A DNA stretch of 64,000 nucleotides. Origin: Actinoplanes nipponensis. Lineage in GTDB: Bacteria > Actinomycetota > Actinomycetes > Mycobacteriales > Micromonosporaceae. Of the stretch, positions 2,531 to 33,717 are shown one piece after another; within the stretch, counting starts at the first letter, position 1; each line of letters opens with the position of its first letter. A program made the translations under genes and the position numbers. The stretch is taken from the NCBI RefSeq assembly GCF_016862275.1, contig NZ_BOMQ01000092.1, forward strand, positions 1-64,000, written 5' to 3'. Below the pieces are notes generated by a model that was not told where the DNA came from, ran no database searches, and saw nothing but the letters and a program-made list of their open reading frames with translations.

Positions 2531-4831
2531 ATGGCCCGTCGATCCGAGACCCCGCGAGATCCGCAGTCCATCCTACGGCTGCAGCTGCGCCTGTGCCGTG
2601 AGCACAACGGCCAACCACCCTTGCGACTGATGGCAGAACGCACCAAAGATGAGGACATCGGACACAGCTATTCGCACACCACCATCGGGAAGAAGCTCGA
2701 GGGGAACGCGCCGATCGACTGGATCTTCGTCCAGGCGATGGTCCGGGTCCTGCACCGCCTCGGTGGGCATCCCGGCGAGCCCGATCTCGCGCGGTGGCTC
2801 AAACTGTTCGAGCAGACCCTGCGGCACGACCACTGGGTAGGGTCGCCGCCGCCCCTGGCCGACGCCTACCAGAGCCGTCCCCTCGCGGACGAGCTCAGCC
2901 TCGAAGTCGCGCGCGGCCGCACGGTCGTTCTCCGCGGGTTCGGCGGGGTGGGCAAGACCCAGTTCGCCGCCGACCTGGTCTACCGGTCCTGGACGGAGCA
3001 CCTCGTCGATGTCGTCGTCTGGGTGGACGCCGCCGACCGGGCCGCCCCGCTCGCCGCCCTGAGCAAACTGGCCGGCAAGCTCGGCATCGAGGCCGACGGC
3101 GACGAGGAGGTCCTGGCCCGGCAGGTGCTGGCCCGGCTCGCCGAGCGCGGCGGCCACCGGGCGCTGATCGTTTACGACGGCGTGCGGAACCCCGCCGATC
3201 TGGACGGTCTGTGGCCGCTGCCGGGCGACACCGCGACGGTGGTAACCACCCAGTGTCGACAGGACGCGCTCGAGGGACACGGGCGGATCGTCCACACCGT
3301 CGGTGTCTTCGAGCCCGGCGAGTCCTTGGGCTACCTGCGCGAGAAGCTCGACGGCGAAGGCCTCGAGGACGCCGCCCGGCTCGCCGAGGAGCTCGGCCAC
3401 CTGCCGCTCGCCCTGTCGCTGGCCGGGGCGTACATGAAGAACTACGCGCTGGATTGCCCCGAGTATCTGCGCAGGTTCCGGGAGCTGCGGCTCGTCGATC
3501 TCTCGCCGGACCGGGACGCCGCGACCCTGGCCACGGCGTGGAACCTCGCGATCACTGCGGCCGACGAACGCCGGCCCGAGGGCGCGGCTCGGCTGCTGCT
3601 CCAGTTCGCGGCCAATCTGGATCCGCACGGCTCCCCGGCGGCACTGTTCCTGACCGAGGCCGTCCGGGCCATGCTCACGGCCCGCCGCGGCCGGGCGACC
3701 AGCGCCGACGACGCCCGCGACGGCGTGTCGAACCTGCGGCTGCTGAGCCTGTGCGAGGACCTCGACGGGCATCGCACCATCACTGTGCACCCGCTCCTGC
3801 AGCGGTCGGTACGCGAGGACGCGCCCGCGGCGGTGTGCGCACTCGCCGGCTGCGCGGCGGACGCCCTGCTGGAAAGATGGCCCACGGTCGAGGGCGACGT
3901 CGGCCTCGTCGAGCAGCTGCGCAACAACACCGAGGCCCTGCGCCGGAACGCCGATGACGCGCTGTGGCGGAACGGGCTGCACCGGGTCGTGTTTCGCGCG
4001 GGCAACAGCCTCACCGCCCAGGGGCTGCCGGTCACAGCCCTGCGATACTGGCAGGAGCTGGTGCCTTCGGCGGTCAAGCACCTCGGCGCCGAGCACGCCG
4101 ACACACTCACCGTCAGGCACAATCTCGCGTGGGCCCGGCATCGCACCGGAGACCACGCCGGCGCGCTGGACGAGATGCGCGATGTGTGGGAGATCCGCCG
4201 CCGGGTCCTGCCCGCCGAGGATCTGAACACCCTCGCCGCACTGCACGGCATCACGGTGTTCCAGCAAGCGCTGGGAAACCGCGAGGGCGCCGCGGCGTCC
4301 CTGGCGGCCCTGGTGACCCGGTACGACCGGCGGGTCGGGGCGGACGATCGCGACACGCTCAACGCCCGCAAGGATCTGGCCTGCATGCTGGGCGAACTCG
4401 AGTCCCCGGCGGTGGCGGTATCCCGGCTCCGCGCGCTGGTGGACAGATATCGCACCGTGGTCGGCGTCGATGATCCGGACACGCTGGACGTCGAGCTCGT
4501 GCTGGCCGGATGGCTGGCCGGCACGGGCGAGCTCGACGAGGCGCGGTCGCTCGTCGACCGGCTGATCGGCGACTACCGCAGGGTGCTCGGTGCGGACCAC
4601 CTCACCACGCTGCAGGTCCGCTACTACGCCGCCGATGTGCGCCGGCAGCAAGGTCAGCGGAGGCAGGCCGGGCGCGCGATGCGTGGACTCCGCCGCGAAC
4701 TGCAGCCGCTGCTCGGCGCGGGCCGGCCGGAGCTCGCGGAGCTCGACGACGAGATCGACGGCTGGCTGGCCGAGCTGCACCTCAGGCGGCGTGCGGCAGC
4801 TGCACCAGCCCGAGGCGGTACGCCGTCGTGA
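2531..4831 (+). CDS. HTH / NB-ARC ATPase / TPR regulatory protein
   Basis: This 766-residue cytoplasmic STAND-type protein has an N-terminal lambda-repressor-like region (about 10-80, including SYSHTTIGKKL). A nucleotide-binding NB-ARC module follows, with P-loop GFGGVGKT (136-143), a Walker-B-like ALIVYDGV, and a GLPL-type motif (HLPLALSLAG). The C-terminal half is a TPR superhelix with repeated LGAEH and DDRDTLNARKDLA-type units. Such proteins act as ligand-triggered switches; here the N-terminal module suggests DNA binding. The ligand and targets are unknown. The 3' end overlaps the convergent response-regulator gene by 50 bp. The 16899-18646 gene pair encodes a shorter HTH-TPR protein without the ATPase module. 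Confidence 0.8.
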   Translation: MARRSETPRDPQSILRLQLRLCREHNGQPPLRLMAERTKDEDIGHSYSHTTIGKKLEGNAPIDWIFVQAMVRVLHRLGGHPGEPDLARWLKLFEQTLRHDHWVGSPPPLADAYQSRPLADELSLEVARGRTVVLRGFGGVGKTQFAADLVYRSWTEHLVDVVVWVDAADRAAPLAALSKLAGKLGIEADGDEEVLARQVLARLAERGGHRALIVYDGVRNPADLDGLWPLPGDTATVVTTQCRQDALEGHGRIVHTVGVFEPGESLGYLREKLDGEGLEDAARLAEELGHLPLALSLAGAYMKNYALDCPEYLRRFRELRLVDLSPDRDAATLATAWNLAITAADERRPEGAARLLLQFAANLDPHGSPAALFLTEAVRAMLTARRGRATSADDARDGVSNLRLLSLCEDLDGHRTITVHPLLQRSVREDAPAAVCALAGCAADALLERWPTVEGDVGLVEQLRNNTEALRRNADDALWRNGLHRVVFRAGNSLTAQGLPVTALRYWQELVPSAVKHLGAEHADTLTVRHNLAWARHRTGDHAGALDEMRDVWEIRRRVLPAEDLNTLAALHGITVFQQALGNREGAAASLAALVTRYDRRVGADDRDTLNARKDLACMLGELESPAVAVSRLRALVDRYRTVVGVDDPDTLDVELVLAGWLAGTGELDEARSLVDRLIGDYRRVLGADHLTTLQVRYYAADVRRQQGQRRQAGRAMRGLRRELQPLLGAGRPELAELDDEIDGWLAELHLRRRAAAAPARGGTPS

Positions 4832-5480
4832 CGGCATGCGTGCGGTTGCGGACGCCCAGCTTCATGAGCACCCGCCCGACGTGCGTCCGTACCGTCAGGG
4901 AACTCAGGACCAGCGCGTCCGCGATCTCGGCGTTGGACAGTCCCCGCGCCATCAGCACCAGGATCTCGTGTTCGCGCCGGGTCAGCCGGTCCGGCGGGGC
5001 GCCGGCGAGCCCGAGGACCGGCCGGCCGGCCGCCTCCCGCAACAGGTCGCCCAGGACCGCCGGGTCGAGCCAGATGCCGGCGGCGGTGACCGTGCGGACC
5101 GCGCGGGCCAGCCGGTCGGTGGCGGTCTCCTTGAGCAGGTAGCCGGCCGCGCCGGCGAGCAGCGCGTCGCAGACCAGCCGGGGGGTGTGCCGGTCGGTCA
5201 GGACCACCACCCGGGCGGTCCCGCCCGCGACGACCTCGGCGATCACGTCGGCGCCGCCGGCCGGGAGGTCCGTCACGACCACGTCGGGGCGGAGCCCGGC
5301 GGCGGCGGCGAGCACGTCACCGGGCGTGGCCTCGCCGGCCACGCGGAGGTCCGGCGTGGCGTCCAGCACGGCCGCTACACCGGCGCGGATCAGCGGTATC
5401 TCGTCGGCGATCAGCACCCGGACGGTCGTCACGCCGTCGCGCCGGGCGGGCAGCGGGCGCACGGATGACAGCTCGGTCAC
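4782..5480 (-). CDS. Orphan LuxR/NarL-type response regulator
   Basis: The 232-residue protein has an N-terminal receiver domain (about 19-135) with acidic pair Asp26/Glu27, phospho-acceptor Asp71 (VVVTDLP) and Lys117 (YLLKE). A C-terminal LuxR HTH (about 163-225) starts at LTRREHEILVLMARGLSN. The GTG start at 5480 has GAGGGGG seven bases upstream. No histidine kinase gene is adjacent, so its partner is unknown. It lies 150 bp downstream of the RiPP genes on the same strand, so it may regulate them or simply sit next to them. Confidence 0.88.
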   Translation of the reverse strand: MTELSSVRPLPARRDGVTTVRVLIADEIPLIRAGVAAVLDATPDLRVAGEATPGDVLAAAAGLRPDVVVTDLPAGGADVIAEVVAGGTARVVVLTDRHTPRLVCDALLAGAAGYLLKETATDRLARAVRTVTAAGIWLDPAVLGDLLREAAGRPVLGLAGAPPDRLTRREHEILVLMARGLSNAEIADALVLSSLTVRTHVGRVLMKLGVRNRTHAVTTAYRLGLVQLPHAA

Positions 5481-5630: not shown

Positions 5631-6674
5631 TCAGTCGTACGAGCCGTGCCGGATCGCGTCCACCAGGCCGGCCACCGCCCGGCCGCCGGGCGTCAGGAAC
5701 GGCTCGGCGGTGCGCAGAGCGTCGATCATCGCCGGTCGGTCGAAGCCGTCGCGTGCCCGGCCGGCCAGCGCCGCGACGCGGTCGGCCGGGAACTCCCGGG
5801 CCGCCGCGGGACGCCGCCAGAACGACCACAGGGCGAACCACACGCAGCAGGCGTGCGCGAACGAGTGCAGGTGCAGCCGGCGCCCGGTCCACGGCGAGGC
5901 GACGGGCACCCGGTCGGCGGCGGCCCGGTCCCGCAGCAGCGGCTCGTCGCGTTCGACGAGGTAGAGGAACGAGTGGACGGCCTCGTGGAGCAGCCGGTCG
6001 AGGACGCCGGCCGGGTCGGCCGGCGGGCCGGCCAGGTTGCCGAAGGCGGGGCCGCCGATGCGGCGTTCGGTCGAGAACGACGTCGCGGCGTCGCCCGGGC
6101 CGCGGCGGGCCACGACGACCCGGACCGACGAGGTGACCAGGTGGTGGGCCTCGGGGCTGATCCGCCGGGCGGCGGCCAGGGCGGCGTCGGCGGCGGTCAC
6201 GACCTCGCGCAGGGCCTCCGGCCGGTACGCCACGGTCGGCCCGGCCCAGTCCAGGGCGGCGTACGGGCTGCGGGTGTCCACCGGTATGCCCGGGGCCAGC
6301 CGGGGCGCGTGGTACGCGCCGTCCGCGCCCTCCGCCGGGAACCAGCAGTCGCCCAATGCGGTCCACACCGGCCGGCCCGGCGCCCGCGCCGGGTCGAGGC
6401 GGCGGAGCTCGGCCAGCGCGCCGGTCAGGAAGAAGTGCAGGTCGTGCGGGGGTCCGTAGTGCAGCCGGCGGCCGCTCTCCGGCGCCAGCACCAGCCGCGT
6501 CGTGCTCGCCTCGGGCAGCTCGCCCACGATCGAGCGCAGCCGGTCGCCGATGTGGGCCCGCACGAACCGGTCCAGCATGGCCTCGAACCGGTCCCGGGAG
6601 GCGGCCGCGAACCGGTCGTGCAGTTCGCGGTGCCGGGCCGCCGCCGGTCGCCAGGACAGGACGTCGGCGACCAC
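5631..6674 (-). CDS. HExxH-motif protein, probable aKG-HExxH-type peptide beta-hydroxylase of a RiPP pathway
   Basis: This 347-residue soluble protein has a metal-binding HEAVH motif (His230-Glu-Ala-Val-His234) followed by a His-rich segment (RLHLHSFAH) that could give further ligands. In recent RiPP literature, proteins of this size with HExxH encoded beside radical SAM peptide-modifying enzymes form a 2-oxoglutarate/iron-dependent peptide beta-hydroxylase family rather than peptidases; that link comes from family knowledge and context. The GTG start lies 4 bp after the radical SAM stop codon, so the two genes are probably translated together. Expected role: hydroxylation of a residue in the precursor encoded at 8535-8864. 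A zinc peptidase that removes the leader is the alternative. Confidence 0.65.
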   Translation of the reverse strand: MVADVLSWRPAAARHRELHDRFAAASRDRFEAMLDRFVRAHIGDRLRSIVGELPEASTTRLVLAPESGRRLHYGPPHDLHFFLTGALAELRRLDPARAPGRPVWTALGDCWFPAEGADGAYHAPRLAPGIPVDTRSPYAALDWAGPTVAYRPEALREVVTAADAALAAARRISPEAHHLVTSSVRVVVARRGPGDAATSFSTERRIGGPAFGNLAGPPADPAGVLDRLLHEAVHSFLYLVERDEPLLRDRAAADRVPVASPWTGRRLHLHSFAHACCVWFALWSFWRRPAAAREFPADRVAALAGRARDGFDRPAMIDALRTAEPFLTPGGRAVAGLVDAIRHGSYD

Positions 6675-6678
6675 CGGC

Positions 6679-8529
6679 TCACCGTCCCGCGGTCGCGGGC
6701 AGCGCCAGGGCGAGGAACTGGTCGCCGTCGCGCATCATCAGGCCCCGGTCGCAGAACTCGGCCAGCGCGCCGGTCACCTCGTCCCGGGACGGGCCCGGGT
6801 CGAGCCGGCCGTGCATCGCCGCCGCGGTGACCGGGCGATCGGCGCAGCTCAGGTAGATCGCGGCCAGCGGGCCGTCGAAGGTGAACGTGCCCGCCTCGGC
6901 CGGCGTGCGCGCGTCCTCGATCTGCAGGAAGCCTTCCGCGTGCCGGAAGGTCAGGGTGGGCCGTTCCGGCGCGCGCCAGGCGTCCCGCCAGGCCCGCACC
7001 ACCCGCCGGGTGCCGTCCATCGTCTCCTCCGGCACCGACCCGTCGAACTCGTACTCGAAGAAGTAGGCGATCCGCTCCAGGTCGACCGACTCGGGATAGA
7101 TCTGCCCGTAGCCGCGGTGCGGGCGCCGGTAGCGGGCCGGGAACGCCGCCGGATCGGCGAAGATCGGGCTGAAGCGTTCCATCCAGATGCGGGTCGGCGC
7201 GCCGGGCGGTGATAGATGCGCCAGCAGCGGCAGGAGTGCCTCCTGGCGCTCGTAGTCCGCCGCGCGTTCGCCGGGGAAGCCGAAAAGCAGGTTCCAGTGC
7301 ACCTTGATGCCGTAGTAGCGGGCCCAGCGCAGCGTGTTGACGTTCTGGATGCCGGTGACGCCCTTGCGCATCAGCCGCAGGACCGGCGTGCTCAGCGACT
7401 CGATGCCCGGCTGCACCCGGCTCACGCCGGCCTGCCGCAGCAGCCGCAGCTGGTCGCGGGTCAGGTTGGACTTGAGCTCGTAGAAGATCTCGTAGTCGGT
7501 GCCGGCGGCGACCAGCTCGGCCAGCAGGGTACGCAGATACGCCATGTCCAGGATGTTGTCGACGGCCTCGAAGCGGAAGCTGCGGTAGCGGCGCGCCGCC
7601 TGCGCCAGCTCCTGGCGTACCCGGCCCGGCGACTTGCTGCGGAAGGCCATCCCGGTGCCGTTGAGGCCGCAGAACGTGCAGTGGTGCTTGGCGCCCCACC
7701 AGCAGCCCCGGGAGCTCTCGAACGGGATGGCGACGTCGCGCCTTGGCGCCCGGGTGAGCAGCCCGAGGCGCTCGGCCCGGTCGAAGTACTCGGTGTAGTC
7801 CGGCATCGGGAGCTCGTCCAGCCGGGTGAACGGCGGACGGTGCCCGACCGCGGTCACGCCCCCGTCGCGCCGGCACACCACGCCCGGCACGGCCGCCGGG
7901 TCGGCGCCCGTCGCCAGCGCCCGGAGGAACTCCGGGAAGGCCTCGTCGCCCTCGCCGATGACCGCGTAGTCCACGCAGCCGATCGCGCCGGTCAGCTCGA
8001 CGCCCATCTCGCCCTCGAAGTTCGCCCCGCCGAACAGCGTGACCACCGCGGGGTGGGCGGCCTTGATCCGGGCGGCCAGGGCGAACGAGGCGAGGTTCTG
8101 CTGGAACGTCGACGTGAAGCCCACGACGTCGAAGCCGCCCCACGGGATCTCGGCCATCAGGCGGTCGAGGAACCGGGGCACCTGCTCCTCGCGCACGGAT
8201 CTCAGGAACTCCAGCGGGTGTGCGACGTCGGGCAGCGCGGCGCGCAGGAACGGCTCGTCGGCCGGGACGGGCGCACCGGGTCCGGGGGCCGGGCCCGGGA
8301 ACGCGGCCGCGGCGAAGAGCCAGTCGCCGAGGAAGGACCGCCCGACGTCGCCGATCGCCTCGTAGGCGCCGGCGCCGATGAGGTCGGCGAACTCGAGATT
8401 GAGGTGGAACGTCTCGGCCGGGAACCCGTGGGCGCCGGCGATCGCCTTCAGCAGGCCCAGCTGGATCGACGGCCGGAACTGGGAGTGGAAGGGCATCGAC
8501 ACGAGCGCGACCCGCGGCGGTGAGGCCAT
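6679..8529 (-). CDS. B12-binding radical SAM RiPP maturation C-methyltransferase
   Basis: The 616-residue enzyme has an N-terminal cobalamin-binding Rossmann-like region (about 1-215, including VVGFTSTFQQNLASF and LFGGANFEGE). The radical SAM core carries Cys276, Cys284 and Cys287 in the signature RGCWWGAKHHCTFCGLN. This CX7CX2C spacing with Trp-Trp-Gly is typical of the RiPP maturation radical SAM protein 1 group (rSAM-ocin), which methylates unactivated carbons of precursor peptides. The C-terminal part (about 520-616) includes a winged-helix-like segment that may contact substrate. The start is 5 bp after the stop of the precursor gene and the stop is 4 bp before the HExxH gene, giving a three-gene operon. 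The methylated residue cannot be predicted. Confidence 0.85.
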   Translation of the reverse strand: MASPPRVALVSMPFHSQFRPSIQLGLLKAIAGAHGFPAETFHLNLEFADLIGAGAYEAIGDVGRSFLGDWLFAAAAFPGPAPGPGAPVPADEPFLRAALPDVAHPLEFLRSVREEQVPRFLDRLMAEIPWGGFDVVGFTSTFQQNLASFALAARIKAAHPAVVTLFGGANFEGEMGVELTGAIGCVDYAVIGEGDEAFPEFLRALATGADPAAVPGVVCRRDGGVTAVGHRPPFTRLDELPMPDYTEYFDRAERLGLLTRAPRRDVAIPFESSRGCWWGAKHHCTFCGLNGTGMAFRSKSPGRVRQELAQAARRYRSFRFEAVDNILDMAYLRTLLAELVAAGTDYEIFYELKSNLTRDQLRLLRQAGVSRVQPGIESLSTPVLRLMRKGVTGIQNVNTLRWARYYGIKVHWNLLFGFPGERAADYERQEALLPLLAHLSPPGAPTRIWMERFSPIFADPAAFPARYRRPHRGYGQIYPESVDLERIAYFFEYEFDGSVPEETMDGTRRVVRAWRDAWRAPERPTLTFRHAEGFLQIEDARTPAEAGTFTFDGPLAAIYLSCADRPVTAAAMHGRLDPGPSRDEVTGALAEFCDRGLMMRDGDQFLALALPATAGR

Positions 8530-8534
8530 GACGG

Positions 8535-8864
8535 TCAGCGGGGCGGCTCGGTGTCCGGCCCGGAGTGCTGGACCGAGTTCTCGACGCTCGGTCCGTCGAG
8601 GGCGTCCTGGATGCTGCCGCCCTTGGCCGACTCGGCGACGGTGCGGAACGCCGTGCCCCGGCCCCGCTCGTACGCGTCCCGGAAGCCCTCCGACAGCAGC
8701 CCGGCGCGGACGGCCGGGGCCGGTTCGGCGGCGGGCCGGCCGAACCGGTGCATGATGGTCAGCAGCACGCCGCGCTCGGTCTCCGACAGGGTCCGGGCGA
8801 ACTCGTCGAGCTTGGTGGCCAGATTGCGCAGTTCGTCCTCAGTGACGGGGAGTTCGTCAGCCAT
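8535..8864 (-). CDS. RiPP precursor peptide
   Basis: This 109-residue acidic peptide is the first gene of the operon. The ATG at 8864 is chosen because AAGGAG lies ten bases upstream; an in-frame upstream extension lacks such a site. Residues 1-42 form a helical leader-like region (TEDELRNLATKLDEFARTLS). A Pro/Ala-rich connector follows. From about residue 52 comes a second segment, with Lys-Gly-Gly at 81-83 and a polar 26-residue tail (84-109) that contains Ser, Asn, Asp and Gln and ends PDTEPPR. Cleavage after Gly-Gly is possible but not proven. Position, size and spacing to the radical SAM gene make the precursor role likely. The product is unknown; no dedicated protease or transporter is visible. 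Confidence 0.75.
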   Translation of the reverse strand: MADELPVTEDELRNLATKLDEFARTLSETERGVLLTIMHRFGRPAAEPAPAVRAGLLSEGFRDAYERGRGTAFRTVAESAKGGSIQDALDGPSVENSVQHSGPDTEPPR

Positions 8865-14944: not shown

Positions 14945-16654
14945 TCACTTCTGCGGAAGCAGCGGCGACTCCGGGTTCACCGTGGCGACCGGCGGGCGCT
15001 GCTTGCCGGTCGGCGAGGACAGGGTGGCGACCTCACCCGGCGGCGGCAGCGGCTCGGTGAACGGCTGCGCCGAGTCGGTGCAGACCGTCCCCTTGGCCGG
15101 CGGCTTGCCGGTCAGCAGGTAGTTGTCGATCGCGGTGGTGGCGCACACGCCCGAGCCGTACGCGGTGTGGCCCCAGTTGTTGCTGGACAGCAGCCGCGAG
15201 TTGGGCAGCAGCCGGCTCGACGCGACGGCGCCCCGGTAGTTCGTCGCCGGATCCCAGAAGTTGCCCACGACCAGCACCGGAGCGACGGTCCGCCGGTTGA
15301 ACGGCCCGCGGTAGGCGTCCTCGTCCTGCACGGTCCACATCTTGTGGGCGCACTGGCTGTCGATCCAGCCCCAGGCCCGGCCGAAGTACGGCGCCTGCCG
15401 GTCGCGACGGGCCGTGGCGGCGGGCCAGGATCCCGCGTCCGCCGGGTGCCGGCCGTCGGTGCAGATCACCGCGCTGGTCGCCTCGAAGCCGTTCTCGTAC
15501 GGGAAGTCGTACCCCTGCCTGCTCGCCCGGGCGGCCCGGGCCCGCGCGGTCAGCGCGGCGGTCGAACCACCCTGCAGGGCCGCCCAGACCTCCGCGGAGA
15601 TCTCGGTGACCACCTCACCGGCGTCCGTGCCGTAGAGCGCGCCGAGGATCGCGCTGACGAAGATCGCGTACGTCACCGTGAACGTGCCGCCCTCGCCGTC
15701 GGGCAGCTGGATCGGCTCGGCGCGCAGCCGCCGGGCGATCGTCTCGAAGTTGCGGACCGGGTCACCCGCGGCGAACACGCAGTACTTCTCGCCGGCCCGG
15801 TCGCAGCGCCGCAGGATCTCGATCAGCGCCCGGTACGCGCCGTCGGAGGAGCGCAGCCGCTCGTCGAGGATCTGCCGGGTGTTGCCGACCCACGCGGTCG
15901 GGGTGAGCACGCCGTCCACGGTCAGGGCCCGGAACCGGTCCGGGAACATGTTGGCGTAGTACTGCCCCAGCGCGCTGCCGTAGCTGAAGCCCAGGTAGTT
16001 CAGCTTCTTGTCGCCCACGGCGCGGCGCATCACGTCCATGTCGCGGGCCACCTCGGCGGTGGACATCGCGCCGGTCAGCGGCCGGCCGGTGGTGGAGCAG
16101 GCCCTGCCGAGCAGCTTGGAGCCCCGCACGTACCGCTGCTCCTCGGCCCGGGTGACCGGGAACGGCACGTTGAACAGATCGAGCACCGCGGTCTGGTCCT
16201 TGACCGACTTGAAGCAGCGGACGTTCGCGCTGGCGCCGATGCCGCGGGGGTCGACCCCGACGATGTCGAAGCGATCGAGCAGCGAGTCGCTGAGGAACTC
16301 CGGCGCATAGCGGGCGAACTCGGTGGCCGAGCCGCCCGGGCCGCCCGGGTTGAGGAACAGGCTGCCGATCTTGTGCCGCTGGTCCCGGGCCCGGACCCGC
16401 AGCACGGCGATCTCGGTGGTGGCGCCGCGCGGCTGGTCGTAGTCGAGCGGCAGCCGGACGGTCGCGCACTCGGCGATCTCGTAGCACTTGTACCAGCCCA
16501 GCTTGGGCGTGGGCACCGCGTCGACCCGTTTGCTCTCGGCCGCGCTGGTGCGATCGGCGGAGACCGGGGCAGCCGAGCCGGGCGCAGCGGCCACGGCGGA
16601 CAGGACGATGCCGGCCAGCGCCGCGGTCAGTAGTCGGTGCGTCTTCAGTGTCAT
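14945..16654 (-). CDS. Secreted alpha/beta-hydrolase, S33 tripeptidyl aminopeptidase type
   Basis: This exported enzyme of 569 residues has a signal peptide (hydrophobic core about 9-24, cleavage near APGSAA). It then has the S33 proline-iminopeptidase-like fold: oxyanion region LNPGGPGG (101-108), nucleophile Ser224 in GFSYGSALG, an Asp in NFWDPATNYRGAV and a His in NNWGHTAYG near the C-terminus. Relatives such as SlpD/SlpE and tripeptidyl aminopeptidases trim peptides from the N-terminus outside the cell. ATG 16654 begins the signal peptide and has AAGGG upstream, so an in-frame extension of 24 residues was left out. A terminator follows at 14905-14940. Confidence 0.87.
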   Translation of the reverse strand: MTLKTHRLLTAALAGIVLSAVAAAPGSAAPVSADRTSAAESKRVDAVPTPKLGWYKCYEIAECATVRLPLDYDQPRGATTEIAVLRVRARDQRHKIGSLFLNPGGPGGSATEFARYAPEFLSDSLLDRFDIVGVDPRGIGASANVRCFKSVKDQTAVLDLFNVPFPVTRAEEQRYVRGSKLLGRACSTTGRPLTGAMSTAEVARDMDVMRRAVGDKKLNYLGFSYGSALGQYYANMFPDRFRALTVDGVLTPTAWVGNTRQILDERLRSSDGAYRALIEILRRCDRAGEKYCVFAAGDPVRNFETIARRLRAEPIQLPDGEGGTFTVTYAIFVSAILGALYGTDAGEVVTEISAEVWAALQGGSTAALTARARAARASRQGYDFPYENGFEATSAVICTDGRHPADAGSWPAATARRDRQAPYFGRAWGWIDSQCAHKMWTVQDEDAYRGPFNRRTVAPVLVVGNFWDPATNYRGAVASSRLLPNSRLLSSNNWGHTAYGSGVCATTAIDNYLLTGKPPAKGTVCTDSAQPFTEPLPPPGEVATLSSPTGKQRPPVATVNPESPLLPQK

Positions 16655-16773
16655 GGTGACGACCCTTCTGACGATGGATCGCGGCGTCGCGCCGCGACCC
16701 CCGGCATAGTAGGAAGTCGATGCCACGCTGAGTGATCATGACATCCGGCGACGCGTCAGCGGACACCCGGACC

Positions 16774-30276: not shown

Positions 30277-30408
30277 GCCGACCTCCGTACCGGGGCTCGT
30301 CAAGCTGGCGAAGCACCATGACAATACGATCTTCCAGCTTTCCCCGTGGGCCCGTGGCGTGCACAATCTGTCGTCGCAGCACGCGCCGACGGCCCCGGGG
30401 GACCCGCC

Positions 30409-33400
30409 ATGACGTTCGATGGATTCATCTCGTACAGCCATGCGGCGGACGGGCGGCTCGCGCCGGCCGTGCAACGCGGGCTGCACCGGCTGGCCAAGCC
30501 CTGGCACCGTCGGCGTGCGCTGTGGATCTTCCGGGACCAGACCGGGCTGGCCGTGACCCCGGGCCTGTGGTCCTCCATCCAGACCGCTCTGGACGGTTCG
30601 GAGTACTTCGTGCTGCTGGCCTCCCCCGAGGCGGCCCGGTCGCCGTGGGTGAACCGGGAGATCGAGCACTGGATCGCCACCAAGTCGGCGGACCGGATCC
30701 TGCCCGTGGTGACCGACGGCGAGTGGGCCTGGGATCCGGAGGAGCACGACTTCGCCGAGGACTCCACGGCGGTGCCGGCGGCGCTGCGCGGGGTGTTCAG
30801 CGAGGAGCCGTTCTTCCTGGACCTGCGGTGGGCCCGCCACAGCGAGCAGCTCAGCCTCCAGCATTCCCGCTTCCGCGACGCGATCGCGCAGCTCGCCGCC
30901 CCGATGCACGGCATGCACAAGGACGAGCTGGAGGGCGAGGACGTCCGGCAGCACCGCCGCGCCCGGCGGCTGCGGTCCGGGGCCGTGGTGACGCTGGTCG
31001 TGCTGCTGGTGCTGGCCTCGCTGACCGGGCTGTCCGCGGTGCGCAACGCCGAGCGGGCGAGGGACGCGGCGGCCGAGGCCCTGCGGCAGCAGCAGGTGGC
31101 GGACGTGCAACGGGGCAGCGCCGAGCGGGCCGCGGAGGAGGCGCTGCGGCAGCAGGAGCTGGCGCAGCAGATGCAGACCCGGGCGGCGGACGCGGCGGCC
31201 GAGGCGGACCGGTCCGAGCGGCTGGCCCAGGAGCAGCAGGGACTGGCGGACCAGGCGGCCGCGGAGGCGCAGCGGCAGCAGCGGCTGGCCGATCAGGCGG
31301 CGACCCGCACCCGGGAACAGCAGCGGCGGGCGAAGGAGGCAGCGGCCCGGGCCCAGCGGCTGGACCAGGAGGCGCGGCGGCTGGCCCGCATCGCCGAGCA
31401 GCAGCACCGGCTGGCCCGGGAGGCCGCCGCGCAGGCCGAGCGGCAGCAGGCCAAGGCGGACCGGCAGCAGCGCGTCGCGGTCAGCCGGCGGCTGCTCAAC
31501 CAGGCCCGGGCGACGCTCGGCAACGACCCGAGGGCGGCCCTGATGCTGGGCGCCGCCGCCCAGTCGATCGAGCCCGGCGCCGAGACCCGCGGCGAGCTCA
31601 CCGGCCTGGTCACGGCCACCAGCTACGCCGGCACGCTCGGCGGGGTGACCTCGGCCCGGTACGCGCCCGACGGCGTCCTGGCCGCCCTGGGCGTCGACGG
31701 TCGCGTGTCGTTGTGGAACGTGGCCGACCGGACCCGGCCGGCCCGCCTCGGCACCCTCGGCGAGCCCGGTGAGCCCGGCAGCTCCCTGACCTTCAGCCCG
31801 GACGGGCGGACCCTGGCCGTGGTCGGCGCGACGGGCCGGGCGGTGCTGTGGGACGTGGCCCGCCGGTCCCGCCCGGCCCGGCTGGTCACGCTGCCGGACG
31901 ACAGCCACGTCTACGCGATCGCGTTCAGCGCGGACGGGACCACCCTGGCCACCGGTCACGGGTCGGGACACACGGTCCTGTGGGACCTGACCGACCGGCG
32001 CCGGCCCGCGCGGCTGGCCACGCTGACCGACTGGGGCGCCTATCCGGTGGACGACCTGGCGTTCAGCCCGGACGGGCGGACGCTGGTGGCCAACAAGGGC
32101 CGCTTCATCCCGGTCTACGACCTGACCGACCGGGCGGATCCCGTCGCGCTGCGCAGCCTGATCGGCTTCACCGTCGCCTCGATGACGTTCGACCCGAAGG
32201 GCTCCACCCTGGTCGTCGGCTCGTACGACGGCAAGGTGGACTTCTACGACCTGACCCGCGAGGCCGACGGGACCGACGAGGCCGACGTCCCGGGCCTGCG
32301 CGCGCTGGACGAGCCGCCGGGCGCCGGGCATCCCCAGCCGCCGCCCATGCCGGACCCCGAGCCCGACGAGAACCTGCCCTTCCGCCGGCTGGCCGGCCTG
32401 GCCGGCATCGTCGCCACGGTGACGTTCAGCCCCGACGGCGGCTTCCTGGCCGCCGGGGACGCGAGCGGAACGGCCATGGTGTGGGACACCGCCCAGGCCG
32501 GCGGTCCCGTGTTGGCCACCACGGTGCGCGCCTACGGCCGGATCGGCGCGCTGACCCTGGACCCGGACGCCGGCACTCTGGTCACCACCGACAGCTCCGC
32601 GACGGCCACGATGTGGAACGTGACCTCCCGCGGCACGCCGGACCTGCTCGCCGCGCTGCCCGTCCCGGACGGCAACCCCCTGGCCACGGCGTTCCGCCCG
32701 GACGGCCGGACGTTGCTGGCCGCGGGGTCCGGCGGCACGGCGAAGTCCTGGGGCGTCACCGACCCCGCCCGTCCCGAGCCGGGCGCCGGCCTGACCCTCC
32801 ACGGCGGGCAGCGGGTCCGGTCGGTCGCGTTCAGCCCGGACCGCCGGACCGTGGCCGCCGTCGGGGCGCAGGACGGCCGGCTGACGCTGACCGACACGGA
32901 CCGTCCAACCCGGACGGTGACGCTGGCGGCCTCGATGGCGCCCGCGCACGGCCGGAACGCGATGGCGTTCAGCCCGGACGGGCGCACGCTCGCCGTCGTG
33001 GCCGGCCCCACCACCCTTGCGCTGTGGGACGTGACCGAGCGGACCCGGCCCGTTCAGCGGGCCACGGTCGGCGGCACGATCGGCTTCCAGAGCGCGGTGG
33101 CCTTCAGCCCGGACGGGCGCACGCTGGTCACCGTCGGCGACGACCGCACGCTGACCCTCTGGAACGTGGCCGGCCGCTCCGCCCCCGGGCGGCTCGCCGT
33201 GCTGGCCGGCCACCTGGACGCCGTGCTGTCGGTGGCCTTCAGCCCGGACGGGCGCACGCTGGTGAGCGGCAGCCTGGACACCACGGCGATACTGTGGGAC
33301 GTCACCGATCGCGCGCGACCGCACCGGTTCGCCACGCTGACCGGCCACGGCGGCTGGGTCGGGTCGGTGGCGTTCAGCCGGGACGGCCGCACCCTGGCCA

Positions 33401-33717
33401 CGGCCGGGCAGGACTACGCGGTGACCCTGTGGGACACCGCCGGCCCGGCCGTGCCGATCCGGCTGACCACGCTGCGCAGCACCGCCGGCGACGGGGGACG
33501 CGCCGTGGAGTTCAGCCCGGACGGGCGCACCCTGGCGGTCACCGGCCCGGCCGGCGGCGACCACCCGACCGTCGCGCTGTGGAGCTACCGCAAGCTGAAC
33601 AGCCTCCGCGCCGACCCGGCCCGGTACGCCTGCGTCACCACCGGGCGCGGCCTGACCGCCGGCGAGTGGGCCCGCTACGTGCCCGAGTTCCCGTACCGGC
33701 GGACCTGTTCGCCCTGA
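30409..33717 (+). CDS. Membrane-anchored TIR-domain protein with coiled coil and WD40 propellers
   Basis: The 1102-residue protein has an N-terminal TIR domain (1-150: FDGFISYSHAADGRLAP, a loop at IFRDQTGLAVTPGL, and WVNREIEHW with candidate catalytic Glu84). A membrane helix follows (about 190-212), then a long Ala/Gln/Arg-rich coiled coil (about 213-360), and about twelve WD40 repeats (about 400-1070) with recurrent FSPDGRTLA and LWDV motifs. The two propellers would sit on the side opposite or equal to the TIR depending on topology; one helix predicts opposite sides. TIR domains either recruit partners or cleave NAD+. GGGGGA precedes the ATG. The 3' end overlaps the convergent acyl-CoA synthetase gene by 43 bp. 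Confidence 0.85.
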   Translation: MTFDGFISYSHAADGRLAPAVQRGLHRLAKPWHRRRALWIFRDQTGLAVTPGLWSSIQTALDGSEYFVLLASPEAARSPWVNREIEHWIATKSADRILPVVTDGEWAWDPEEHDFAEDSTAVPAALRGVFSEEPFFLDLRWARHSEQLSLQHSRFRDAIAQLAAPMHGMHKDELEGEDVRQHRRARRLRSGAVVTLVVLLVLASLTGLSAVRNAERARDAAAEALRQQQVADVQRGSAERAAEEALRQQELAQQMQTRAADAAAEADRSERLAQEQQGLADQAAAEAQRQQRLADQAATRTREQQRRAKEAAARAQRLDQEARRLARIAEQQHRLAREAAAQAERQQAKADRQQRVAVSRRLLNQARATLGNDPRAALMLGAAAQSIEPGAETRGELTGLVTATSYAGTLGGVTSARYAPDGVLAALGVDGRVSLWNVADRTRPARLGTLGEPGEPGSSLTFSPDGRTLAVVGATGRAVLWDVARRSRPARLVTLPDDSHVYAIAFSADGTTLATGHGSGHTVLWDLTDRRRPARLATLTDWGAYPVDDLAFSPDGRTLVANKGRFIPVYDLTDRADPVALRSLIGFTVASMTFDPKGSTLVVGSYDGKVDFYDLTREADGTDEADVPGLRALDEPPGAGHPQPPPMPDPEPDENLPFRRLAGLAGIVATVTFSPDGGFLAAGDASGTAMVWDTAQAGGPVLATTVRAYGRIGALTLDPDAGTLVTTDSSATATMWNVTSRGTPDLLAALPVPDGNPLATAFRPDGRTLLAAGSGGTAKSWGVTDPARPEPGAGLTLHGGQRVRSVAFSPDRRTVAAVGAQDGRLTLTDTDRPTRTVTLAASMAPAHGRNAMAFSPDGRTLAVVAGPTTLALWDVTERTRPVQRATVGGTIGFQSAVAFSPDGRTLVTVGDDRTLTLWNVAGRSAPGRLAVLAGHLDAVLSVAFSPDGRTLVSGSLDTTAILWDVTDRARPHRFATLTGHGGWVGSVAFSRDGRTLATAGQDYAVTLWDTAGPAVPIRLTTLRSTAGDGGRAVEFSPDGRTLAVTGPAGGDHPTVALWSYRKLNSLRADPARYACVTTGRGLTAGEWARYVPEFPYRRTCSP

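Follow-up and report, generated by a model that had tools for sequence, protein, structure and literature searches.

In this article we describe a compact gene cluster, a probable biosynthetic operon for a ribosomally synthesized and post-translationally modified peptide (RiPP) beside a SARP-type regulator, in a 64,000-nucleotide stretch of DNA from the soil actinomycete Actinoplanes nipponensis (contig NZ_BOMQ01000092.1, positions 1 to 64,000; "the window" below always means this whole stretch). Three genes are under study, encoding a precursor peptide, a B12-dependent radical S-adenosylmethionine (SAM) enzyme (rSAM) and a protein of the alpha-ketoglutarate (alpha-KG) HExxH family, and we will refer to their products as the window precursor, window rSAM and window HExxH (Table 1). 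Judged from sequence and predicted folds, the cluster probably makes a short peptide bearing both C-methyl groups and hydroxyls; its pairing of a predicted C-methylase with an HExxH protein joins known enzyme types and was met in very few other genomes, and the unit conserved among relatives is SARP-TPR regulator, precursor and rSAM, not precursor, rSAM and HExxH.

The window rSAM belongs to the TIGR03975 family of RiPP maturation C-methyltransferases, scoring 642.7 bits (cut-off 281.85, E 5.9e-193) over the entire profile (1-606 of 606), and methyl transfer to a peptide carbon is the predicted activity. It has an N-terminal cobalamin-binding domain and a predicted fold resembling cobalamin rSAM enzymes, and its motif RGCWWGAKHHCTFCG holds C276, C284 and C287 in a C-x7-C-x2-C spacing whose cysteines are kept in 107 of 107 aligned rSAM sequences. 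Similarly, the window HExxH is a member of the alpha-KG HExxH family (TIGR04267, 56.1 bits against a cut-off of 40, E 4.5e-15), with an intact metal motif, HEAVH, at residues 230-234 and a predicted fold resembling the alpha-KG oxygenase ChlBH (8s5f), which ranks far ahead of the zincin peptidases among the structural matches listed; the window HExxH is predicted to depend on Fe(II) and alpha-KG and to be a beta-hydroxylase. Going by the alignment with ChlH, the His of an AHAC motif could supply a third metal ligand; two relatives have Glu or Gln there, so we make no such claim. The genes run head to tail in the order precursor, rSAM, HExxH with intergenic gaps of 5 and 4 bases, and the SARP gene ends 92 bases upstream of the precursor start codon on the same strand. 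All three open reading frames fit real genes, given their G+C content at third codon positions (GC3; 0.936 for the precursor, 0.961 for the rSAM and 0.968 for the HExxH, with 0.963 for the adjoining SARP gene) and an AAGGAG ribosome-binding site ahead of the precursor ATG; a longer precursor frame is possible (128 aa, start 8921), and the start at 8864 is favoured on account of the leaders of relatives and that ribosome-binding site. The preliminary description of this DNA, made from the letters alone, had reported these frames, their gene order and 4-5 bp gaps, the 109-residue peptide, the radical SAM signature and the HEAVH motif, all of which are where it placed them, and its family calls (RiPP precursor, TIGR03975 C-methyltransferase, alpha-KG HExxH hydroxylase) are borne out by sequence and predicted fold.

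That description would have been refuted by a precursor missing from all homologous loci, and in 42 of 106 distinct rSAM loci a relative of the window precursor is recognised by profile. Relatives of the rSAM were drawn from 354 genomes of the same family, 90 of which have a match at E 1e-40 or better, and from a scan of named genomes giving 79 loci (the best 80 of 136 matches); 40 stretches around the best family-genome matches and the 79 named-genome loci make 119, reduced to 106 by removing near-copies. Six seeds were expanded into a precursor profile (members called at E < 1e-3), and a member lies beside the rSAM in 38 of the 59 loci whose rSAM exceeds 600 bits against the window rSAM (the close loci), in 4 of 10 at 500-600 bits and in 0 of 37 below 500. 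A leave-out profile of 41 precursors, built without the window precursor and without its nearest relative (at locus L136, in another genome of the genus), finds the window precursor at E 2.5e-10 (36.9 bits) in a set of 1003 sequences and the L136 precursor at 54.2 bits, the best of 1000 shuffles of the window precursor reaching 8.6 bits; a phmmer search with the window precursor gives E 5.6e-12 for L028 (the same place as L136) and 1.2e-5 for L059. By these comparisons the window precursor is a real member of a precursor family, with a leader at about residues 1-45, a conserved F-x3-[FY] element and a C-terminal core candidate; family members share the leader (for example MAGEIRITQDDIDSLATKLDNFSEALTNKER) and often an F-x3-F-T-P-G element too, and their cores diverge. 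The window precursor matches no NCBIfam family at E 1 and no Pfam family over cut-off, and two further signals were taken as chance: a Pfam EspC match to residues 1-29 (16.5 bits, below the cut-off of 23.5) and, in a single-sequence search of 397 genomes of the order, 20 places besides itself (E 3.1e-5 to 0.01, 31-42% identity, mostly within long open frames). The approximately 40 natural precursor-rSAM pairs are a ready set from which to learn leader and core requirements.

The neighbour that travels with this pair is the regulator, which the preliminary description had omitted: a SARP-TPR homologue (E < 1e-20, within 1.5 kb of the rSAM) is present in 51 of the 59 close loci versus 3 of 33 at 400-600 bits, and the window, with its profile-recognised precursor and adjacent SARP-TPR gene, belongs to this SARP-linked, DUF5825-free precursor family. 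The conserved three-gene neighbourhood that had been implied did not hold up, since the HExxH gene is a rare add-on, present at 2 of 16 rSAM places with at least 53% identity to the window rSAM (30 genomes), and precursor, rSAM and HExxH as the conserved unit is ruled out by this rarity. The slot following the rSAM, taken as the nearest gene on that strand no more than 400 bases away, is instead variable across the 59 close loci, with a GNAT acetyltransferase cluster in 9 (for example L064:9829-10404), a DUF6294 cluster in 6, HExxH in 1 (L136), other genes in 21 and none in 22, one member each of the GNAT and DUF6294 clusters being verified with Pfam. TIGR04267 proteins as such are common, found in 65 of the 80 rSAM-positive genomes searched (of 90), and those among the matches listed are mostly encoded by frames of roughly 430-1000 aa. 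Judged by position in 30 genomes, such a protein is encoded no more than 3 kb from the rSAM in the window and in G421 (the genome of L136) only; for 50 further genomes the places were compared by eye, among the matches listed. Window-like HExxH proteins occur in 3 of 354 family genomes, the A. nipponensis genome among them; of 396 genomes of the phylum, that genome alone has one. An HExxH gene follows the rSAM at L136, where gene order is the same as in the window and the proteins are 51-66% identical, and at a Sphingomonas locus, L086; other window-like HExxH genes, in G418 and on three Rhizobium plasmids, adjoin SPASM-type rSAM genes, those of the plasmids having FxsB/YhhB or TIGR04463 (L187) as best models, all below cut-offs. 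A quick rSAM tree places the window and L136 as sisters (support 100) in a near-basal position within the close clade and L086 outside it, and its well-supported branches require at least two separate gains of the HExxH neighbour.

The absence of DUF5825 also sets this branch apart. In a count of places covering 30 genomes out of the 90 with an rSAM match (leaving aside second fragments of split rSAM genes in G567 and G015 and one further G015 match), DUF5825 adjoins the rSAM at 26 of 30 places in the branch with 36-43% identity to the window rSAM, at 0 of 16 with at least 53% identity and at neither of two places with 47-48%, and PF19142 (DUF5825) has no match in the A. nipponensis genome. 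Clavusporins are reported to owe their C-methylations to a B12 rSAM and DUF5825 pair (PMC12257519), and a Streptomyces clavuligerus plasmid (L188) has such a pair annotated side by side. The window shares with that type the NCBIfam rSAM subfamily (36-43% identity at DUF5825-linked places) and an actinomycete host, and differs in having a SARP-TPR and an HExxH gene as neighbours and no DUF5825 partner beside the rSAM or elsewhere in the genome, and membership of the clavusporin type was rejected. The branch free of DUF5825 would, if true, be evidence that methylases of this family can sometimes do without such a partner.

We consider it reasonably likely that the leader guides C-beta methylation of Ile, Leu or Val and beta-hydroxylation of Asp (or Asn, Gln or His) in the C-terminal third of the peptide. 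The ribosome would supply the 109-aa peptide and the rSAM would bind its conserved N-terminal leader, using methylcobalamin and SAM to methylate unactivated beta-carbons of Ile, Leu and Val in a PoyC-like manner; the HExxH protein, a predicted Fe(II)/alpha-KG oxygenase with the ChlBH fold, would next hydroxylate a beta-carbon, most likely at Asp90 of GGSIQDALD, with Asp87, Asn96, Gln99 and His100 as rivals. The leader would then be cut off by a protease encoded outside the operon, the product would be exported, and the SARP protein may regulate the genes. The nearest protease candidate seen is a TAP-like alpha/beta hydrolase (14945-16726; PF08386, 73.9 bits), possibly a secreted peptidase, 6 kb from the precursor. 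Asp90 is a first guess because enzymes of the HExxH family hydroxylate Asp and His in the case of ChlH and Gln in the case of PflC (PMC12636437). It lies in a GG-(x)-I-x4-D pattern common to the window (KGGSIQDALDG), to L136 (PGGAISHSIDGG, at the peptide end; GGAISHSID) and to the candidate precursor of Sphingomonas L086 (KGGIAKAKDIA), and found in 0 of 41 other precursors; at L084 (Blastococcus), where no window-type HExxH was found, Glu replaces the Asp. As a modification site the pattern is a lead only, and the idea that it marks the substrates of window-type HExxH proteins in general is unsupported. C-methylation at unactivated carbons and beta-hydroxylation alter how a peptide folds and resists breakdown, and a compact enzyme pair doing both on one short peptide would, if true, be a usable tool.

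Table 1. Features of the cluster and its flanking regulators, in window positions.
Feature	Position	Strand	Remarks
Precursor peptide	8864-8535	-	109 aa, ATG start; coordinates include the stop codon
B12-dependent radical SAM enzyme (rSAM), TIGR03975 (rSAM_ocin_1)	8529-6679	-	616 aa
Alpha-KG HExxH-type peptide hydroxylase (predicted), TIGR04267	6674-5631	-	347 aa, GTG start
SARP-type regulator, NB-ARC and TPR repeats	11854-8957	-	965 aa; BTAD 132.1 bits, NB-ARC 38.8, TPR_12 80
LuxR/NarL-type response regulator	4782-5480	-	GerE 65.3 bits, Response_reg 38.4 bits
Precursor residues 57-74, LSEGFRDAYERGRGTAFR	8643-8696	-	Counterpart: LSDGFRQAFEHGLGTTFR in L136 and the QFxxAFTPG element of many other relatives
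GGSIQDALD, precursor residues 82-90	8595-8621	-	Candidate site: Ile85, Leu89, Asp90

Several observations weigh against a C-methylated and hydroxylated product. There is no profile-recognised precursor at 21 of the 59 close loci; in several of these (L083, L064, L065, L142) its place is taken by a peptide that is hydrophobic in its N-terminal part and contains an IREQF-x3-F-x-A-G element, and at others, such as L137, L058 and L076, no clear precursor candidate was seen. The operon itself contains no protease or exporter gene, the sister rSAM branch is partnered by DUF5825 and the window branch lacks it, and the predicted structure of the window HExxH is of middling confidence. The HExxH pairing amounts to two genomes of one genus and a distant Sphingomonas case, whose precursor was chosen by eye and is not recognised by the precursor profile (E 19), so that its membership of the same precursor family is unsupported. 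The GG(x)I-x4-D pattern was noticed post hoc in a small sample; shuffles match it in 4.3% of cases for the Sphingomonas peptide, 6.1% for its C-terminal 35 residues and 0.9% for the last 45 residues of the window precursor, and it is absent from four candidate precursors whose neighbouring window-type HExxH genes have rSAM partners of other types; two of the four (L185, L186) have GGSI/GGI and lack the Asp.

Some B12 rSAM enzymes in RiPP loci, furthermore, cross-link rather than methylate: BipD of the biphenomycin pathway couples two ortho-tyrosines, and one such cluster has an alpha-KG HExxH protein, BipH (PMC12707348). By analogy the window rSAM could form a C-C cross-link, or make some other non-methyl change, with the HExxH protein hydroxylating the cross-linked peptide, just as the substrate of ChlH is a pre-formed cyclophane (PMC12636437). 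Window-type HExxH proteins elsewhere are, as noted, partnered with SPASM-type rSAM genes. However, the window rSAM reaches only 66.6 bits (cut-off 750) in the model of ApyD, which we take to be a cross-linking enzyme, against its 642.7 bits in TIGR03975, and Phe, Tyr and Trp are absent from the last 35 residues of the window precursor and from the 14 residues after TTFR in that of L136, making a cross-linked product unlikely. We find it equally improbable that the HExxH protein is not a side-chain hydroxylase but a peptidase that removes the leader or trims the C terminus, or an enzyme that cleaves the backbone oxidatively: the same-family enzymes PflC and PosC combine Gln hydroxylation with oxidative backbone cutting and PflC hydrolyses a truncated peptide (PMC12636437), and no other protease gene is in the operon, yet the model of the window HExxH matches ChlBH far above zincin peptidases, the precursor lacks an ARMD tail and the TAP-like hydrolase is a possible peptidase nearby. 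That the HExxH gene is a passenger, leaving the product only C-methylated while the protein has some other peptide of the genome as its substrate or is decaying, would agree with the lack of a window-type HExxH in the stretches around 58 of the 59 close rSAM loci (the exception being L136), as scored by a local profile that detects the window type alone and missed the first HExxH of L086 (TIGR04267, 80.6 bits), and with the three further over-cut-off TIGR04267 proteins in the same genome; we regard it as very improbable given the 4-base gap to the rSAM gene, the same order in a second genome whose proteins are 51-66% identical, the intact metal motif and the GC3 of 0.968.

Extending the C-methylation and hydroxylation reading, one could see in these loci a widespread SARP-linked class of RiPPs with a DUF5825-free C-beta methylase, its own precursor family and an exchangeable third gene (GNAT, DUF6294 or HExxH) behind the rSAM, the window product being doubly modified at GG(x)I-x4-D; we offer this tentatively, as a possibility short of an even chance. 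No report pairing a TIGR03975 C-methylase with an HExxH hydroxylase was found in the literature searched, which covers few subscription journals. Among known systems, the polytheonamide enzyme PoyC, compared by description, is alike in its C-x7-C-x2-C motif (PMC11285071) and B12 rSAM architecture. Unlike in that system, no epimerase or lanthionine-type gene is among the immediate neighbours scanned and the window precursor matches no NCBIfam model. Membership of the proteusins was rejected as no nitrile hydratase-like leader was recognised at E 1 in NCBIfam, which presumably includes models for such leaders. The ChlB/FxSxx systems, with a cyclophane-forming rSAM and an alpha-KG HExxH domain (8s5f), are alike in fold and motifs of that domain; here, in contrast, the HExxH is a separate protein partnered with a B12 methylase-type rSAM. 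The FxSxx/ChlB triceptide type was likewise rejected, since a scan of the immediate neighbours showed no SPASM rSAM and the precursor ends in TEPPR, not FxSxx; an NB-ARC/TPR protein near the cluster on the opposite strand (2531-4831, + strand) reaches 270.4 bits in FxSxx_TPR, below the cut-off of 300. The biphenomycin cluster resembles the window in having one B12 rSAM (BipD) and one alpha-KG HExxH protein (BipH) for one RiPP precursor (PMC12707348) and differs, with BipD and BipH compared by description, in that BipD couples aromatic rings and the window core has no aromatic motif, and in that no MNIO, arginase, JmjC or TldD gene is among the window genes scanned. Finally, PflC and PosC are of the same family by name and are stand-alone HExxH proteins acting on a RiPP precursor, whereas their partner is an MNIO-nitroreductase and their substrate a Gln tract with an ARMD tail (PMC12636437; compared by description).

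The searches also brought up other loci of interest. TIGR04267 matches at five places in the A. nipponensis genome, at one of them below cut-off, and two of the five are on contig C36 (L182) with a radical SAM gene that is FxsB-like by eye. In L086:5179-10794 (Sphingomonas colocasiae), a candidate precursor, an FxsB-like rSAM (318.1 bits versus a cut-off of 370), an HExxH protein, a TIGR03975 rSAM and a second HExxH protein stand in a row, and the peptide could possibly receive a cyclophane, hydroxylation and C-methylation together. On Rhizobium plasmids typed as conjugative, at L185:6468-10023 and L186:5640-9903, proteins of 380 and 632 aa repeat Q[TN]HS[ES] 8 and 13 times, mostly inside MHDQTHSEGG; each directly precedes an rSAM that is FxsB/YhhB-like (below cut-offs) together with an HExxH of the window type, and the two proteins are candidate giant multicore RiPP precursors. 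On a Rhizobium etli plasmid (L187:7249-12551), a 77-aa open reading frame, a TIGR04463-like rSAM (below cut-off) and HExxH, JmjC and GNAT genes are clustered in what is likely another multi-enzyme RiPP locus, and in G418, of the same genus as the window (L180:4000-11276), three HExxH-type proteins surround an FxsB/YhhB-like rSAM, preceded by a small open reading frame at 4000 and followed by genes that are YcaO- and TfuA-like by eye. At L106:883-4594 and L116:6166-9857, a protein judged subtilase-like by eye and bearing I/V-x-P repeats in its tail (such as PIQPIQPIQP and ITPITPIRP), lies directly before or overlaps a TIGR03975-type rSAM gene, and this Ile/Val-rich tail may be a methylation substrate. 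Within the window, the LuxR-type response regulator is the first gene downstream of the HExxH gene, past a 150-base gap, and its membership of the cluster is uncertain; farther away are a GH43 enzyme carrying CBM6 and CBM2 modules (332-2209) and a WD40-repeat protein of 1123 aa (30346-33714).

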